Part shown: in pieces, positions 5,411 to 40,634 of the stretch
Layout of the letters: each line of letters begins with the position of its first letter
How positions within the stretch are numbered: position 1 is the stretch's first letter
Source: Bacillota bacterium
GTDB taxonomy: Bacteria; Bacillota; UBA4882; UBA10575
NCBI GenBank assembly: GCA_012727425.1
Contig: JAAYHQ010000079.1
Location: 25,752 to 89,751 of the forward strand
Direction of reading: 5' to 3'
Length of the DNA stretch: 64,000 nucleotides
Translations under genes and position numbers: made by a program
The notes under the pieces: model-generated
What the model was told of the DNA's origin: nothing
Database searches by the model: none
Seen by the model: only the letters and a program-made list of their open reading frames with translations

Positions 5411-6145
5411 ATGTTTACACCGGTTGATTTGGAGACCATGGTTTTTCGCCGGGGATTCCGCGGCTACAAGACCAAAGATGTTCAAGACTTCATGCGGAAG
5501 CTGATTGTGGATTATGAAAAATTGTATAAGGAAAACATTGACCTCCGGGAAGAGTTGGAAAGGCACAAAGATTTACTGAAGAACTACCAAGCAATGGAAG
5601 AGACCTTAAAAAACACCCTTTATCTCGCCCAAGGGACCGCCGATGAGATTAAATCCGCCGGGGAAAAACAAGCCGAGATTATCCTCCGGGAGGCACAGAA
5701 CCGTGCCGAGCAGATGCGGTTGAAAGTCCGCGAGGAGATCCAGGCCGAACTCCAACAATTGGCCAATCTTAAGCAACAAGTGGATATGTTCCGGATCCAT
5801 TTCGTTGGTTTTTTACAATCCTTGATTGAAATGGCCGAGAAACGCTTGGATATTGAGGATATTTGGGAGCAAATGGCCAATCTTTCCCGTTATGGGGTGA
5901 CCACAAAGCCGGAAGAGAAGAAAGCGGAACCGGCGAGAGCGGAAAGCCCGGAGAAACCGGAGTCCTTCACTAAATTGGAGCCGGATAATTTAGGGAAGAA
6001 TTTGGGCCAAATAGAGCAGCGGGAGAAGATCGAGAAGTTTGAGCCGATCACAGCCGTAAAGAAACCGGCGGCGGGGCTTGAGGATGATCTGTTGGCGGCT
6101 GCGAAGGCGAAGGCGGCTAGCCTGTTTGAAACCACCGAGTTATAA
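5411..6145 (+). CDS. divIVA: DivIVA domain protein
   Basis: MFTPVDLETMVFRRGFRGYKTKDVQDFM plus a coiled coil. Confidence 0.93.
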   Translation: MFTPVDLETMVFRRGFRGYKTKDVQDFMRKLIVDYEKLYKENIDLREELERHKDLLKNYQAMEETLKNTLYLAQGTADEIKSAGEKQAEIILREAQNRAEQMRLKVREEIQAELQQLANLKQQVDMFRIHFVGFLQSLIEMAEKRLDIEDIWEQMANLSRYGVTTKPEEKKAEPARAESPEKPESFTKLEPDNLGKNLGQIEQREKIEKFEPITAVKKPAAGLEDDLLAAAKAKAASLFETTEL

Positions 6146-6641
6146 GGACTGCGGTGCTAAAGGCGGCCAGATCGCCGAGGAGCCCCATGCTGACCAAATG
6201 TCTCGGACGGCTGATACCGACGGCCCCGAGGTAAACCGTTAAGACATAGAAAGTGGTCTCCGATCCCCCGGCGATAATTGAAGCCATCATACCGAGCAGG
6301 GAATCGGGGCCATGTTTCTGTGTTAAGTCGGCCATGAAGCCAATCGTGCCCGAACCGGAAAGCGGTTTGACCAGGCCTAACGGGAGGATTTCTTCGGGAA
6401 TTCCAAAGAGGCGGGCCAGTGGTGTCGTGAGGCGGCAGAACAGAGTGAGGGCGCCCGATGTTTTAAAGACCGCCAACGCCCCGAAGATGGCCAGGAAATA
6501 GGGTAAGAGTTGGAATCCGGTTTTTAAACCGGTGCCGGCCCCTTGGATAAAGGTTTCATACACTTTAACCCCTTTATACTCGCCGTAGGCAAGCACAACC
6601 AGGATAAAGAGGGGAATAGCCCAAACCGAGAGTATTTTCAT
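6117..6641 (-). CDS. spmB: Spore maturation protein B
   Basis: PLGLVKPLSGSGTIGFMADLTQKHGPDSLLGMMASIIAGGSETTFYVLTVYLGAVGI. Confidence 0.95.
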   Translation of the reverse strand: MKILSVWAIPLFILVVLAYGEYKGVKVYETFIQGAGTGLKTGFQLLPYFLAIFGALAVFKTSGALTLFCRLTTPLARLFGIPEEILPLGLVKPLSGSGTIGFMADLTQKHGPDSLLGMMASIIAGGSETTFYVLTVYLGAVGISRPRHLVSMGLLGDLAAFSTAVLITRWFQTG

Positions 6642-7243
6642 TTTTTACTCTCCTTTCGGGTTTTTTTTATGATAAAATGCGTTAAAAGGGCGACGGTGGT
6701 TCCGATTAGCGAAACGATAAGGATGGGGAGGATCACCACTGTCGGTTGGACCGAACCGGCACGGGAACGAACGGCGATGATGGTGGACGGAACGAAGGAG
6801 ATCCCGCCCAAGATTAAAGCCAGGTATACGGCCATCTCGTCGGAAACTTCACCGGGGGAAGGATTGACCTTTTCCAGTTCCTGCATAGCTTTAATACCCA
6901 GCGGAGTGGCGGCGTGGCTCAAGCCAAGCAGATTGGCGGCCAAACTGAGGGTGATGGCGCCGATAGCGGGGCTGTTGGCCGGAAGACGGGGGAAAAGGCG
7001 GCGGAGAAGCGGGTAAAGGGCCCGGGCCAGTTTTTGGGTCAGGCCGGCGGCTTCAGCGATTTTTAACAGGCCGGACCAGAAGGCGAGAAAGCCGATCAGG
7101 CCCAGGGTGAAATTGACGCTCTCCTCCATGGCGGCGAGGAGGGCCATGGTTGTCTCTTCGACGCGTCCGGTCGCCCCGGCTGCTAAAAAGCCGAGAAAAA
7201 AAAGGGCAAACCAGATTTTATTAATGGCAAACACCTCCCCCAT
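6638..7243 (-). CDS. spmA: Spore maturation protein A (start uncertain; possible ATT start at 7225)
   Basis: INKIWFALFFLGFLAAG, GLIGFLAFWSGLLKIAEAAGL, ANLLGLSHAATPLGIKAMQEL; ATGA overlap with spmB. Confidence 0.9.
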   Translation of the reverse strand: MGEVFAINKIWFALFFLGFLAAGATGRVEETTMALLAAMEESVNFTLGLIGFLAFWSGLLKIAEAAGLTQKLARALYPLLRRLFPRLPANSPAIGAITLSLAANLLGLSHAATPLGIKAMQELEKVNPSPGEVSDEMAVYLALILGGISFVPSTIIAVRSRAGSVQPTVVILPILIVSLIGTTVALLTHFIIKKTRKESKK

Positions 7244-7322
7244 GGATCTATATATACGGCGGCGGGGCGGCTTTATGCCCAATCCGCGGCCAACGGATGG
7301 CAGACGATGGGAGCGAAGTAGC

Positions 7323-8276
7323 GTGGGGACCTATTCACAACAGACGAAGGAAGAGCTGGCCCGGAAATACCCGGCGCAAAAATGTTGCGTTAAAGCGGAA
7401 CTGGCGGCGATTGTCCGCGCTTGCGGCAGTCTGCATTTACGGGCCAACCACTCATATATGGTAACGATCAGCAGCGAGAGCGCGGCTTTGATCCGGAAAA
7501 CCCGTCTACTCCTGAAGAAATATTTCCAGCTTTCCGGAAGGATTATTGTCGAAGATAGCGGACGGTTTAACCGGCGCCGCTACCGTTTACAACTGATTGG
7601 GGCCCGGAACGTGAAGCGGGTCTTGGCTGAGCTGGAGATCTTGGCGGACGGGATAAACAGTGGCATTCCGTCCACGTTGGTCCGGACCGATTGTTGCCGG
7701 GCGGCTTTTCTCCGGGGCGCTTTTTTGGCCCGCGGTTCGATCACCGATCCGCAGAAACAGAACTATCATTTGGAAATCACCACGGAAAATGAGGAGTTTG
7801 CTTTAGGTTTACATTACTTGATGAACCTGTGCGGATTCCGGGCGGGCACGCACCAGCGGAAGGAATATACGGTCTACCTGAAGGGTGCCGAAACGATCGG
7901 CCGGTTTATCAGTTTCATTGGTGCCCATGGTGCCTTTTTGGCCATGGAAGAGGTGCGTGTGTTCAAAGAGATGCGGAATGAAGTCAACCGCCTGGTCAAT
8001 TGTGAGACGGCCAATTTGGAGAAATCGGTGCGGGCGGGTTTGGAGCAAGTGGAGGTGATTAAGGCTTTAAAAGCTTGGAATGTGCTGGCCAAACTGCCAG
8101 CCAGTCTTCAGGAGATTGCCCGGCTCCGCCTGGAACATCCCGAAGCCAGCCTGCGGGAGCTGGGCGAGTTGGCCAATCCGCCCTTGAGCAAGTCGGCGGT
8201 GAACCACCGGATGCGGAAATTGTTAAAAATTGCCGAAACTTTTGTCGGCCGGGAGGAAATGAATTCTCCAGGATGA
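7323..8276 (+). CDS. whiA: DNA-binding protein WhiA
   Basis: GTG start: YSQQTKEELARKYPAQKCCVKAELAAIVRACGSLHL; C-terminal HTH HPEASLRELGELANPPLSKSAVNHRMRKL. Upstream part of the ORF-track ORF rejected. Confidence 0.93.
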   Translation: MGTYSQQTKEELARKYPAQKCCVKAELAAIVRACGSLHLRANHSYMVTISSESAALIRKTRLLLKKYFQLSGRIIVEDSGRFNRRRYRLQLIGARNVKRVLAELEILADGINSGIPSTLVRTDCCRAAFLRGAFLARGSITDPQKQNYHLEITTENEEFALGLHYLMNLCGFRAGTHQRKEYTVYLKGAETIGRFISFIGAHGAFLAMEEVRVFKEMRNEVNRLVNCETANLEKSVRAGLEQVEVIKALKAWNVLAKLPASLQEIARLRLEHPEASLRELGELANPPLSKSAVNHRMRKLLKIAETFVGREEMNSPG

Positions 8277-18554: not shown

Positions 18555-18904
18555 GGGGGCGACTGGTTTCGACGGGGAGTATGATGACAGGGGTAGCGGG
18601 TCGAGGTGCTGTGGCCTCGTTAAACTGCAGCAAGCACAATAAGTGCCGATAACAATCTCGCTTTAGCTGCTTAATTTAAAGCAGCCGTCCAATCCGGACT
18701 TAACCTGGGAGTCCGGCACGGGCGTCACTTAAACCAGGTTGCTCACCGGCCAATTCTCGGAGGCCGGTGCTAAGACCATCGAGATAGTCGTAGTCCAGTT
18801 TGTCCGTAGACGGGACCACGGCGAAAATAAAATACGGACTGCACCCGGAGAGACTCCTGTGGTCATCTTTTCGGACGGGGGTTCGATTCCCCCCGCCTCC
18901 ACCA
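18555..18904 (+). ncRNA. ssrA: Transfer-messenger RNA (tmRNA)
   Basis: 5' GGGGGCGACTGGTTTCGACGGGG pairs with 3' CGCCTCC-ACCA; tag GCC GAT AAC AAT CTC GCT TTA GCT GCT TAA (ADNNLALAA) at 18645-18674; GGTTCGATTCC T-arm. Confidence 0.98.
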
Positions 18905-32429: not shown

Positions 32430-32738
32430 TTACCCCATGAGGAACTGGTAAAGGTAGACCGCCAGGGAAGCACAGAGGGCTACAGTCATCAACCCTTTTT
32501 CGTAGAAAGCCAAGAGGAGGGCGACGCTGAAACCAACTAACGCCGAAGCCGTGTCCCCGGTAGCGCTGAGGATGGCGGGAAAGGTCATTGCTCCCAAGAC
32601 GGCGTAGGGTACGTAGTAAAGGAAGGATTGGAGAAAAGGGGATTTGATCTTTTGACGTAAAAAAGCCAAGGGTGTCACCCGTGGGAGGTAAGAGACCAGT
32701 GCCATTAAAAAGACAGCCAGTAAGGTACGGCCCATCAT
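32430..32738 (-). CDS. azlD: AzlD-family branched-chain amino acid transport protein
   Basis: MMGRTLLAVFLMALVSYLPRVTPLAFL...; ATGA overlap with azlC. Confidence 0.88.
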   Translation of the reverse strand: MMGRTLLAVFLMALVSYLPRVTPLAFLRQKIKSPFLQSFLYYVPYAVLGAMTFPAILSATGDTASALVGFSVALLLAFYEKGLMTVALCASLAVYLYQFLMG

Positions 32739-33493
32739 TGAACCTCCTTCCGTGGGAAGAAGTAAGCGCCGCCGAGACAAGCAATGATGGTGGCGATCAT
32801 GATCCGCCAACCGGCGGAGAGTTGTCGCAATCCGGGAAGCCAGGTGAGGGCGGAACTGAGTCCAACTGCCACCCCGACGATCCAGCGGACGGCAGTGGAT
32901 TTTTTGGCCGGGGGTACTACCAAAGCAATGAACATGGCATACAGCGTGATCCCCAGAGCGTTTTGGAGGTTGTTGGGCAGCAGTGTGCAGACGACCCCTC
33001 CGAGGAGGGTTCCGGTGCCCCAACCGGCATAGGGCCCAAGGATCAATCCGATCATATAATGAAAGGAGATTTCTGTTCTTTCCAGCGCGGCGACGGTGAA
33101 GGTCTCGTCGGTAATGCCGAAGGCCATCAGGCACCGTTGGCGCCAAGTCAGGCCGGGGGTTAGTTTTTGCCCGAGGGACAGGGACATTAGTAAATAGCGA
33201 AGATTAATAACCAAGGTGGTTAGGGTAATTTCAAGCAGGGAAGCTCCGGCCAAGATCAGGTTTGTCCCGGCGAACTGTCCGGCCGAGGTTAGATTGGTGA
33301 GCGAGATTAGCGTGGCCACCCAGGCGGGAAGACCGCCTTTAACCGCCAGGAGCCCGAAAGCGAAGGAGACCGGAAGGTAACCTAGGGCGATGGGCAGTCC
33401 GTGGCGGAGACCGAGGTTAAACTCCTGACGAGGCCGGTTTTTGGCCGGTGTTGGCGGCTGGTCAGTTAATGTTGATAATGAAGAAGTCAGCAC
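32735..33493 (-). CDS. azlC: AzlC-family ABC permease
   Basis: GLRHGLPIALGYLPVSFAFGLLA, TSAGQFAGTNLI, LRYLLMSLSLGQ, TDETF. Confidence 0.93.
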   Translation of the reverse strand: MLTSSLSTLTDQPPTPAKNRPRQEFNLGLRHGLPIALGYLPVSFAFGLLAVKGGLPAWVATLISLTNLTSAGQFAGTNLILAGASLLEITLTTLVINLRYLLMSLSLGQKLTPGLTWRQRCLMAFGITDETFTVAALERTEISFHYMIGLILGPYAGWGTGTLLGGVVCTLLPNNLQNALGITLYAMFIALVVPPAKKSTAVRWIVGVAVGLSSALTWLPGLRQLSAGWRIMIATIIACLGGAYFFPRKEVQ

Positions 33494-33683: not shown

Positions 33684-34092
33684 GGTCCCAACCGAACCGG
33701 GTAACCGCGGGCGTCAGGCCGCAAGGCTGCGCCTGAGGAAAGTCCGAGCTCCATAGGGCAGGGTGCTGGATAACGTCCAGTGAGGGTGACCTCAAGGAAA
33801 GTGCCACAGAAAAGGAAACGCCGACTGGAGACCGGGAGACCGGCCCAGGGCAAAGCTGAAAAGGTGCGGTAAGAGCGCACCAGCGGTTAAGTGATTAACC
33901 GGCTTGGCAAACCCCACCTGGAGCAAGACCAAATAGGAGGGGGCGTCTGCCCGGCAGACGCAAGAATGGCCCGTTCTTCCCTCGGGTATGGTCGCATGAG
34001 GCGGCAGGTAACTGTCGTCCCAGATAAATGGTTACCGCCGGCTGCCGTGCGTAGCCGGTACAGAACTCGGCTTATAGGTTCGGTTGGGAACA
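33684..34092 (+). ncRNA. rnpB: RNase P RNA (bacterial)
   Basis: GAGGAAAGTCCGAGCTCCATAGGGCAG...GTGCCACAGAAA...AGGTAA...ACAGAACTCGGCTTATAGGTTCGGTTGGGA; 5' TCCCAACCGAA pairs with 3' TTCGGTTGGGA. Confidence 0.98.
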
Positions 34093-34132: not shown

Positions 34133-34831
34133 TTAATCCTGGTTCACCAGACCCAAGGCGGCATTGACCGGAAGCGAGAAACAGATCCCGCGACCGCTCG
34201 TGTTCAACCCGGCGTCGTGGGTGATTTTCTCCATGATCTGGGGTTTTTTCGCTTGTGGGACCAGAATCAGGATCACATCTTTTTCCGGTTGGATCGTGAT
34301 GCCCAGAAATTTTTCCGCTTCTCTCGAACCCAACCCCAAACCGTGCAGCAGCGTCCCGCCGGTGGCGCCGGCCGCTTTGGCGGCGGTCATCACCAGATCG
34401 GAGTGGCCGCGGTCGACAATGGTGACAATTAAAGCATAAGGTTTCTTTTCTTCCATGGTCTGATCCTCTCTTCCCGCATAGGTATTATCCTGATCCGCCT
34501 GTTGGCAGATCTGCCAAAGGATGCTGCTGGAACTATCCAAAGGAATGGTAAAGGCGATCCCCGTGCCGGCCCGGTACAGATCGATCCGTTCGCGGAGGCG
34601 CGCCAGGATCTGCTGTGTTAAACTAGTACTTTGGATACTGAGCGCGATTAATTTCTTGGGACTGCCGAAGCCGAGCAGGTCATAAATATCCAAAGTGGCG
34701 GAGCCATACCCGTGACTTAGGATATAAAAGGGTAGCTCATCCCGCTTATATAACTTTTTCAACTGGTGAGCTAGACTATAATCGACGATGGTTATTAATG
34801 CTTCCAAGCTGCGCTCCATTTTTTTTGCCAT
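34133..34831 (-). CDS. PII-like protein with two tandem PII-type domains
   Basis: Internal repeats HGYGSATLDIYDLLGFGSPKKLIALSI / HGLGLGSREAEKFLGITIQPEKDVILILV and GTGIAFTIPLDSS / GRGICFSLPVNAA. Confidence 0.7.
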   Translation of the reverse strand: MAKKMERSLEALITIVDYSLAHQLKKLYKRDELPFYILSHGYGSATLDIYDLLGFGSPKKLIALSIQSTSLTQQILARLRERIDLYRAGTGIAFTIPLDSSSSILWQICQQADQDNTYAGREDQTMEEKKPYALIVTIVDRGHSDLVMTAAKAAGATGGTLLHGLGLGSREAEKFLGITIQPEKDVILILVPQAKKPQIMEKITHDAGLNTSGRGICFSLPVNAALGLVNQD

Positions 34832-34919
34832 TGATTCGTACCCCCTGTTCCCCTCGCTAAGGATTGTCGGCCACCGACATGCGTGTTTGTAGCGGTAGGA
34901 TCTTCTTTCTTCACCGCGT

Positions 34920-36446
34920 TTATTGCTTGGGTGCGTATTCCTCATTATCATATAAAATAATCGAGTCTTCGGCAACCGGAATTTCCATCTCTTTCTCGGC
35001 CCGTCTGGCTTTCATCCGGTAAATCAAGCCAAAACACTGGATGGTGAGCACCGGCGTTAGTGCTACCAGCGTCACAATGCCGAAGGCCTCCGTAAAAATG
35101 TTCCCCCCGCTGGTTTCACAGGCCCCAATCGCCAGTGGTAAGAGAAAGGTGGCGGCTAATGGCCCCGAGGCAACGGCACCGGAGTCAAAAGCAATCGCCG
35201 TAAAGAGGGGCGGGACAACCAGCGCCAGCAGGAGGGCGATAATGTAACCGGGGATCACGATATAGAGCAAAGAGGTTTCGGTTAAGATCCGGAACATGGA
35301 GAGCCCCACGGAGATAGCCACCCCAATGGAGAGGGCAACCCCCATGGCCCGCCCGGAAATGGCACCGTCGGTAATGTCTTCAACCTGCTCTTTCAGCACA
35401 AAAACGGCCGGTTCGGCGGCGACGACAAAATAACCGGTGACCAACCCAATCAGGATCAGGGCCCAGGGTGGGGCATTCGTGATCAAGGAGCCCCCCAGTT
35501 GGTATCCGGCGGGCATAAACCCCACATTAACACTGGTGAGGAACAAAACAAGCCCCGCGTAAGTATAGATGGTCCCGACTAAAATGGTCAGCAATGTTTT
35601 TCGCCGGAGACGCAGGGCGACCAGCTGAAAGATGATAAAGAGCACAAGAATCGGGAAGAGGGCAATGGCCACTTGCCCAAAAAAAACGGGGAAATTCGCC
35701 AGATAAAGATGGAGGATATCGCCCAGCGCAAGCAGTTCGGGAATGGCCAGGACGCTCCCGCCGGACGGTTCGAAAAAGAGGCCTAAGATTAACATCGTCA
35801 GGATGGGCCCGAATAGGCAGAAGGCGACCAAACCAAAGCTGTCCTCTTCCGTGGTTTTATCACCCCGGACCGAGGCCAGTCCAAGGCCCAGGGCCATCAC
35901 AAAGGGGACCATAATTGGACCGGTGGTGACGGCTCCCGCTTCCCAAGCAATGGAAAGAAAGTTTTTGCTGGTAAAACCCGAGAGGATAAAAGCCAGCAAA
36001 TAACAGGCGGCAAGGATGGCAGAGAGCCGGACCTGGAACAGGATGCGGAGAAAGGCACCGACCAGCGCCAGCCCGACCCCAACCGAAACGGCAAAGATAA
36101 TGACGGGGTCGGGTATGCCGCTGACTTGGCGGGCTAAAACGTGAAGATCCGGTTCGGCAATGCTGATAAAGGTGCCGATCACAAAGGTCAAAACGACGAT
36201 TAACTTTAAGTTTTTACTTTTTACCAACCCGGAGCCCACATGCTCCCCGATGGGCATCAAAGAAACATCAACCCCGAGATTGAACAGGGTGATGCCAAGG
36301 ATCATCAGCATTGCGCTCACCAAAAAAAGAACCAAACTGTAAAAGGGCATGGGGGCGATTGTTAGAGCCAAAACGAGAACAATCACAATAATCGGCAGGA
36401 CCGATAAAAAAGATTCTTTGAATTTTGTCCAGAGTAGTTTTTTCAT
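34920..36446 (-). CDS. DUF1538 family membrane protein with internal duplication
   Basis: Duplicated motifs GVDVSLMPIGEHVG/SVNVGFMPAGYQLG, AEPDLHVLARQV/AEPAVFVLKEQV, AGAVTTGPIMVPF/SGAVASGPLAATF. Confidence 0.8.
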   Translation of the reverse strand: MKKLLWTKFKESFLSVLPIIVIVLVLALTIAPMPFYSLVLFLVSAMLMILGITLFNLGVDVSLMPIGEHVGSGLVKSKNLKLIVVLTFVIGTFISIAEPDLHVLARQVSGIPDPVIIFAVSVGVGLALVGAFLRILFQVRLSAILAACYLLAFILSGFTSKNFLSIAWEAGAVTTGPIMVPFVMALGLGLASVRGDKTTEEDSFGLVAFCLFGPILTMLILGLFFEPSGGSVLAIPELLALGDILHLYLANFPVFFGQVAIALFPILVLFIIFQLVALRLRRKTLLTILVGTIYTYAGLVLFLTSVNVGFMPAGYQLGGSLITNAPPWALILIGLVTGYFVVAAEPAVFVLKEQVEDITDGAISGRAMGVALSIGVAISVGLSMFRILTETSLLYIVIPGYIIALLLALVVPPLFTAIAFDSGAVASGPLAATFLLPLAIGACETSGGNIFTEAFGIVTLVALTPVLTIQCFGLIYRMKARRAEKEMEIPVAEDSIILYDNEEYAPKQ

Positions 36447-40391: not shown

Positions 40392-40634
40392 TAAGAAGGC
40401 GAAGAACGGGAGAGTAGTTTGGACGGGAAGGACAGAGAGGGGAGACCGGCGGCTGGAAGTCTTCCTCCGGAACCACAAATGAAATGCACCCGGGAGCCGT
40501 GGGGCCGAAGGGCGAGTAGGTCTTAACGGGAACGCCCGTTACAGCGTGGCTTCGAGTGGGACCGCAGGTGCGGTCCAACCAGAGTGGAACCGCGAGGTGA
40601 GAACTTCGTCTCTGTCGAGAGGCGAAGTTTTTTT
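40392..40634 (+). promoter_or_regulatory. T-box riboswitch (predicted Cys-specific) with terminator
   Basis: T-box AGAGTGGAACCGCG (40581-40594); candidate specifier TGC (40485-40487) in GAAATGCACC; terminator AACTTCGTCTCT-gtcg-AGAGGCGAAGTT-TTTTT. Confidence 0.93.

Follow-up and report, generated by a model that had tools for sequence, protein, structure and literature searches.

PII-type transporter partners and the DUF1538 family

In textbook accounts, PII proteins sense nitrogen and carbon status, and their canonical representatives, GlnB and GlnK, are homotrimers of one-domain subunits. Two of their partnerships with membrane proteins are close to the case described here: GlnK-AmtB, a PII-gated ammonium channel, and SbtB-SbtA, in which a PII-like protein without canonical 2-oxoglutarate sensing is paired with a transporter. 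The superfamily also contains enzymes, the SAM and SAM-AMP lyases. The residues of GlnK that bind the ATP phosphates and 2-oxoglutarate include Gln39, Lys90, Arg101 and Arg103 (PMC8395244), SbtB is treated in PMC10991534, and the T-loop of SAM-AMP lyase ends with the catalytic Glu71 (PMC12255297).

For DUF1538 (PF07556), the only functional study found in our search of the open-access literature is that of UmpA and UmpB from Halomonas zhaodongensis, which jointly confer Na+(Li+,K+)/H+ antiport on E. coli KNabc (PMC5484666). The clone was a 4.2-kb insert whose listed open reading frames include no PII gene, and PII is not mentioned in the study (PMC5484666); since UmpAB is active in E. coli from such an insert, a PII partner is not required for basal transport. 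DUF1538 is also among the genes predictive of growth pH, alongside components of the Mrp, Kdp and Trk systems (PMC13255231). A sequence-only reading of the locus described below had called the substrate of DUF1538 proteins unknown, which was too pessimistic given the antiport activity of UmpAB.

A fused DUF1538 protein and its tandem PII-like neighbour

The window, a 64,000-nucleotide stretch of a Bacillota genome, carries on its minus strand a gene for a 508-aa DUF1538 membrane protein (34920..36446) and, 88 bp downstream, one for a 232-aa soluble PII-like protein (34133..34831, start ATG at 34831), the same-strand pair and spacing that the sequence-only reading had reported. That both proteins are internally duplicated, as it also proposed, is borne out. 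By Pfam, the membrane protein has two DUF1538 domains (E 5.6e-122), at 35775..36392 (N-terminal) and 35022..35651 (C-terminal), and its halves align at 29% identity over 223 aa (E 1e-23). The halves of the soluble protein align weakly with each other (E 1e-5, BLAST), and PF00543 (P-II) is recognised in the C half (28.2 bits against a curated cut-off of 25), while membership of the N-terminal domain is detectable only via relatives: with a profile that takes in only single-domain PII genes, none of them from this genome, the N half reaches 43 bits, where the best of 1486 scored shuffled copies has 5.5 bits. Together, the half-against-half alignments and the excess of the N-half score over the shuffles indicate that both duplications are real.

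Like UmpAB, the window protein contains the same Pfam domain twice, and its halves match the first and second genes of split pairs: the N-terminal domain is closer to the first gene (202 vs 139 bits) and the C-terminal domain to the second (215 vs 152 bits), from which we read the protein as a fused heterodimer, UmpA-like followed by UmpB-like. UmpAB differs in being encoded by two genes rather than as one fused polypeptide, and no PII partner has been described for it. Against the NCBIfam UmpA and UmpB equivalog models the window protein scores 142 and 111 bits, where the cut-offs are 490 and 500; with scores this far below them, its ion specificity may differ. The AlphaFold2 model (mean pLDDT 89.7) has two helical repeats, with helix breaks predicted at two corresponding Ala-Glu-Pro motifs, aa 97-99 in the N domain (36150..36158) and aa 344-346 in the C domain (35409..35417), and also close to the N domain's TTGP-type motif. 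Of the two motif glutamates, Glu345 does not vary among 65 DUF1538 sequences, and Glu98 hardly does. The protein has no sequence match in the PDB, and a structure search of the PDB returned no reliable fold match (best, CLC, E 5.8e-3, probability 0.35), for which reason we claim no fold.

For the PII-like protein, AlphaFold2 predicts, from an alignment of 56 relatives, two ferredoxin-like beta-alpha-beta-beta-alpha-beta domains (mean pLDDT 79.5, with lower confidence in the loops and the linker); plasmid loci were excluded from the alignments used for structure prediction. Foldseek matches the model to solved PII and GlnK chains, one domain per chain, at probability 1.00 and a best E of 2.4e-5, with CutA1 also among the matches, as expected of the PII superfamily. 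A structure prediction that gave the soluble protein some other fold would have spoken against the sequence-only reading; the model gives the PII fold.

The N-terminal PII-like domain (34511..34807) is degenerate: Lys60 is kept, conservation is lower, and the position of Glu183, invariant in the C-terminal domains of tandem proteins, is in most cases taken by Lys or Arg. A relation of this domain to the c-di-AMP receptors (YaaQ/DarA) was considered and rejected, the match not being significant (E 0.72). The C-terminal domain (34160..34432) carries Gly158-x-Thr160, a short T-loop, Glu183-Lys184 and a B-loop GxGIxF, a loop set (Gly158, Thr160, Glu183, Lys184, GxGIxF) that is strongly conserved in C-terminal and single PII domains. 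The canonical ATP-phosphate and 2-oxoglutarate set of Gln39, Lys90, Arg101 and Arg103 is not retained: in an alignment with Thermus PII, Lys90 is replaced by Ile216, Arg101 by Gly227 and Arg103 by Val229, with the same pattern across the subfamily. Compared with Thermus PII, the T-loop is short by about 5 residues, and it lacks the conserved tyrosine (Tyr51) that is uridylylated in the long canonical loop. With these side chains replaced and the T-loop shortened, GlnK-type Mg-ATP/2-oxoglutarate sensing, and thus canonical nitrogen sensing, is unlikely as judged from the alignment. Other counterparts are kept, namely Thr29 as Thr160, Lys58 as Lys184 and Phe92 as Phe218, of which Thr160 and Phe218 correspond to adenine-contacting residues in GlnK. 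A different ligand in the inter-domain cleft is possible, and the three retained residues make an adenine-containing ligand other than Mg-ATP/2-oxoglutarate our first guess.

Around the pair, a class A RNase P RNA gene (33689-34090, plus strand) is convergent with the PII-like gene and ends 43 bases short of it, and an AzlC/AzlD branched-chain amino acid transport pair lies downstream on the same strand as the module (32430-33493, minus). The window also contains a tmRNA gene (18555-18904, plus; tag ADNNLALAA) and a T-box leader (40393-40616, plus). Across the 67 sources searched with Rfam, only rnpB, tmRNA, T-box and unrelated matches were obtained and none forms a leader on the DUF1538 gene, so we rejected control of the module by a riboswitch or other RNA. 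A phage or defence role was likewise rejected, with no match in PHROG or PADLOC.

Conservation, architecture and co-inheritance of the pair

When close relatives were searched for, 43 loci were obtained from Bacillota genomes, clostridial ones among them; in 42, a PII-like gene follows directly 3' on the same strand, and the remaining locus is cut by a contig end. Against the bias of sampling close relatives, we searched 399 evenly drawn Bacillota genomes with the DUF1538 family and a PII profile, counting PII as present at E below 1e-15. Both genes occur in 133 genomes, DUF1538 only in 2, the PII subfamily only in 3 and neither in 261 (the Fisher p is tiny, kinship being ignored). Of the two DUF1538-only genomes, G052 has a gene that has decayed and is interrupted by stops, and in G278 the gene lies where its contig ends. 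The PII gene lies directly downstream in 153 of 158 DUF1538 clusters, a count slightly biased by the roughly ten clusters that were retrieved via PII; of the other five, three are at contig ends, one (L091) is a 108-aa fragment and one (L140) is a real exception with its PII on another contig. The linkage on which the sequence-only reading staked its proposal is thus strongly conserved, and the pair almost certainly constitutes a real, conserved module. The median gap between the two genes is -4 bp, with overlap in 83 of 152 cases as estimated from the nearest start codon. In two alphaproteobacterial plasmids, of Methylocystis and Chelativorans, the order is DUF1538 (umpA-like), DUF1538 (umpB-like), P-II, and three loci (L131, L142 and L128) carry two complete modules in tandem. 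We found no third conserved operon member: the most frequent other neighbour family, ABC ATPases, reaches 22 of 154 loci and was rejected as a candidate for its mixed positions. No natural DUF1538-PII fusion protein was found among the open reading frames searched. Gene linkage alone is compatible with direct binding or with mere co-expression.

The complete loci fall into a series of architectures: one DUF1538 gene with one PII domain (n=10), two DUF1538 genes with one PII domain (n=27), two DUF1538 genes with two PII domains (n=24; 9 as two genes, 15 fused), a fused DUF1538 with two PII domains (n=92; 3 as two PII genes), and a fused DUF1538 with three PII domains (n=2). One of the last (L242, 5537-6619) encodes, downstream of the fused DUF1538 gene, a single protein with three PII-like domains, which could form a trimer-like unit inside one chain. 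No fused DUF1538 with only one PII domain occurs among the complete loci, and the two seeming instances (L006 and L031) are both cut by contig ends. In a tree of 145 loci, made with a quick method and with long branches flagged, DUF1538 fusion maps to one change, against at least 4 for the number of PII domains. The rule that a fused DUF1538 goes with two or more PII domains therefore rests on one event, and we rejected correlated fusion as independent evidence on stoichiometry.

Across 89 fused loci, the distance matrices of the two proteins correlate at r 0.94, and their two deep clades correspond 48/41 with zero exchanges. As vertical inheritance of a tight operon would produce this correlation, we take it as a sign of stable pairing, not of contact. 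The genome of the window holds one module from each deep clade, with paralogue identities of 42% and 28%; the second, deeply diverged DUF1538-tandem PII module is L005 (G000:C60:26000-40000, 5413-6090 and 6074-7672, minus).

Proposed control of antiport and the alternative readings

To the known pairs, the module compares as follows. As in GlnK-AmtB, a small PII-fold protein is encoded beside one membrane transporter, to which it seems to be dedicated, and in this design the analogy drawn by the sequence-only reading holds. It fails at the sensing site, where the ATP-phosphate and 2-oxoglutarate side chains are missing; the window pair further departs from GlnK-AmtB in its tandem PII domains, its shorter T-loop and a target that belongs to an antiporter family, in a genome without detectable AmtB (no PF00909 ammonium transporter was found in this approximately 96% complete genome, and 14 of 14 control genomes were matched). 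Compared with SbtB-SbtA, the transporter family is another one, no C-terminal redox loop was noted, and the PII partners have one to three domains per polypeptide. DUF1538 and PII are each of a known kind, and adjacent entries for the two genes are already named in RefSeq, where the PII product is called 'P-II family nitrogen regulator'; their dedicated pairing appears undescribed, as no description was found in the open-access papers searched.

We consider it probable that the DUF1538 protein is an UmpAB-family cation/proton antiporter controlled by its PII-like partner, with the contact, the ligand, the ion and the direction of control proposed as follows. UmpA and UmpB would be fused into one antiporter polypeptide with a dedicated soluble PII-like partner, the two genes forming one module; the DUF1538 protein would exchange Na+, K+ or Li+ for H+, the PII-like protein would assemble on its cytoplasmic face, and a small ligand in the PII-like inter-domain clefts would turn transport up or down. 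In favour of this reading we count the co-occurrence and gene order in Bacillota and on the alphaproteobacterial plasmids, the lack of a third conserved neighbour, the matching clades, the antiport activity of UmpAB, the failure to find AmtB, and the neighbours of the other PII genes described below. The PII-like protein would then be a dedicated control partner of DUF1538 and not a nitrogen regulator, the PII fold being used here to control ion/proton exchange.

That the operon contains a canonical nitrogen PII by chance is hardly credible: the PF00543 match of the PII-like protein exceeds the cut-off and its relatives bear the RefSeq nitrogen-regulator name, but the ATP-phosphate and 2-oxoglutarate residues are not kept, no ammonium transporter was found in the genome, and the conserved neighbour is DUF1538 rather than amtB or glnA. 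Nor do we give much weight to an enzyme, comparable to the SAM and SAM-AMP lyases, with which the antiporter is merely co-expressed. The short T-loop of tandem C domains does end in an invariant glutamate, Glu183, recalling Glu71 of SAM-AMP lyase (PMC12255297), yet this likeness is only a lead because a glutamate occupies the position in only 67% of single-domain copies; moreover, no sequence match to SAM or SAM-AMP lyases was seen, and an enzyme would not explain why the pairing with a single transporter is obligate, all of which makes this reading very improbable.

Two other alternatives deserve more attention, even if we regard each as unlikely. The PII-like protein may be a ligand-free structural subunit or assembly factor, a fixed accessory of the antiporter, as its near-obligate linkage, the overlapping reading frames, the loss of the canonical ATP/2-oxoglutarate side chains and the degeneracy of the N-terminal domain would allow; against this, conservation of the loop set is to be expected of a site that binds a ligand, not of a scaffold, and UmpAB is active in E. 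coli from an insert lacking a PII gene. Alternatively, the DUF1538 protein may be a PII-controlled transporter whose substrate in this clade is not Na+, K+ or H+ but, for example, an organic acid or an anion. Its low similarity to the UmpA and UmpB equivalog models, the single DUF1538 pair ever assayed (PMC5484666) and the occurrence of the PII subfamily beside MFS and ArsB/NhaD-type genes speak for such a substrate, and the antiport activity of the assayed members, together with the prediction of growth pH by DUF1538 alongside Mrp, Kdp and Trk parts (PMC13255231), against it.

Returning to the control of antiport by PII-like partners, PII genes outside the module are also found beside transporters. 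Exactly three PF00543 genes occur in the genome of the window, two with DUF1538 and one, of another PII subfamily, directly beside a PF00999 Na+/H+ exchanger gene (G000:C66; L221, 3925-5121 and 5147-5524, minus). This CPA-linked subfamily scores about 23-36 bits against the module profile, where module members score about 100 bits. Ten of its loci were collected as weak PII-profile matches, not selected for exchanger neighbours, and nine, the window genome included, adjoin a Na+/H+ exchanger, the tenth (L214) a CLC gene. As in the module, a PF00543 protein is thus encoded directly beside a cation/proton antiporter, whereas the PII subfamily is a different one and the transporter family (PF00999) is unrelated. 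As for module-type PII genes, two genomes that lack DUF1538 have one adjacent to the gene of an ArsB/NhaD-type (CitMHS) transporter (L232, 5649-7589; L233, 5878-7743); a single-domain one neighbours a PntB-like transhydrogenase subunit gene (L248, 2408-5547), and a stray one an MFS gene (L241). In the genus g165, a tandem PII gene occurs away from DUF1538 (L235 and L238) with a 455-464-aa neighbour that is membrane-protein-like and has no Pfam match. Tentatively, PII-like proteins may be a general control device for ion/proton antiporters, with separate subfamilies recruited to DUF1538, to CPA Na+/H+ exchangers, to the ArsB/NhaD type and perhaps to CLC and the proton-pumping transhydrogenase; in some anaerobes, the window organism among them, all PII proteins would then serve this purpose and none nitrogen control, those of the DUF1538 module having been duplicated and fused to reach up to three domains per chain.

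PII partners with one, two or three domains form a natural series of use for studies of stoichiometry and structure. If PII partners do gate cation/proton antiporters, the annotation 'P-II family nitrogen regulator' would be misleading for a whole subfamily, DUF1538 antiporters would gain a regulatory subunit that was overlooked in their only functional study, and the pH and sodium homeostasis of many anaerobes would become directly testable as a ligand-controlled process.
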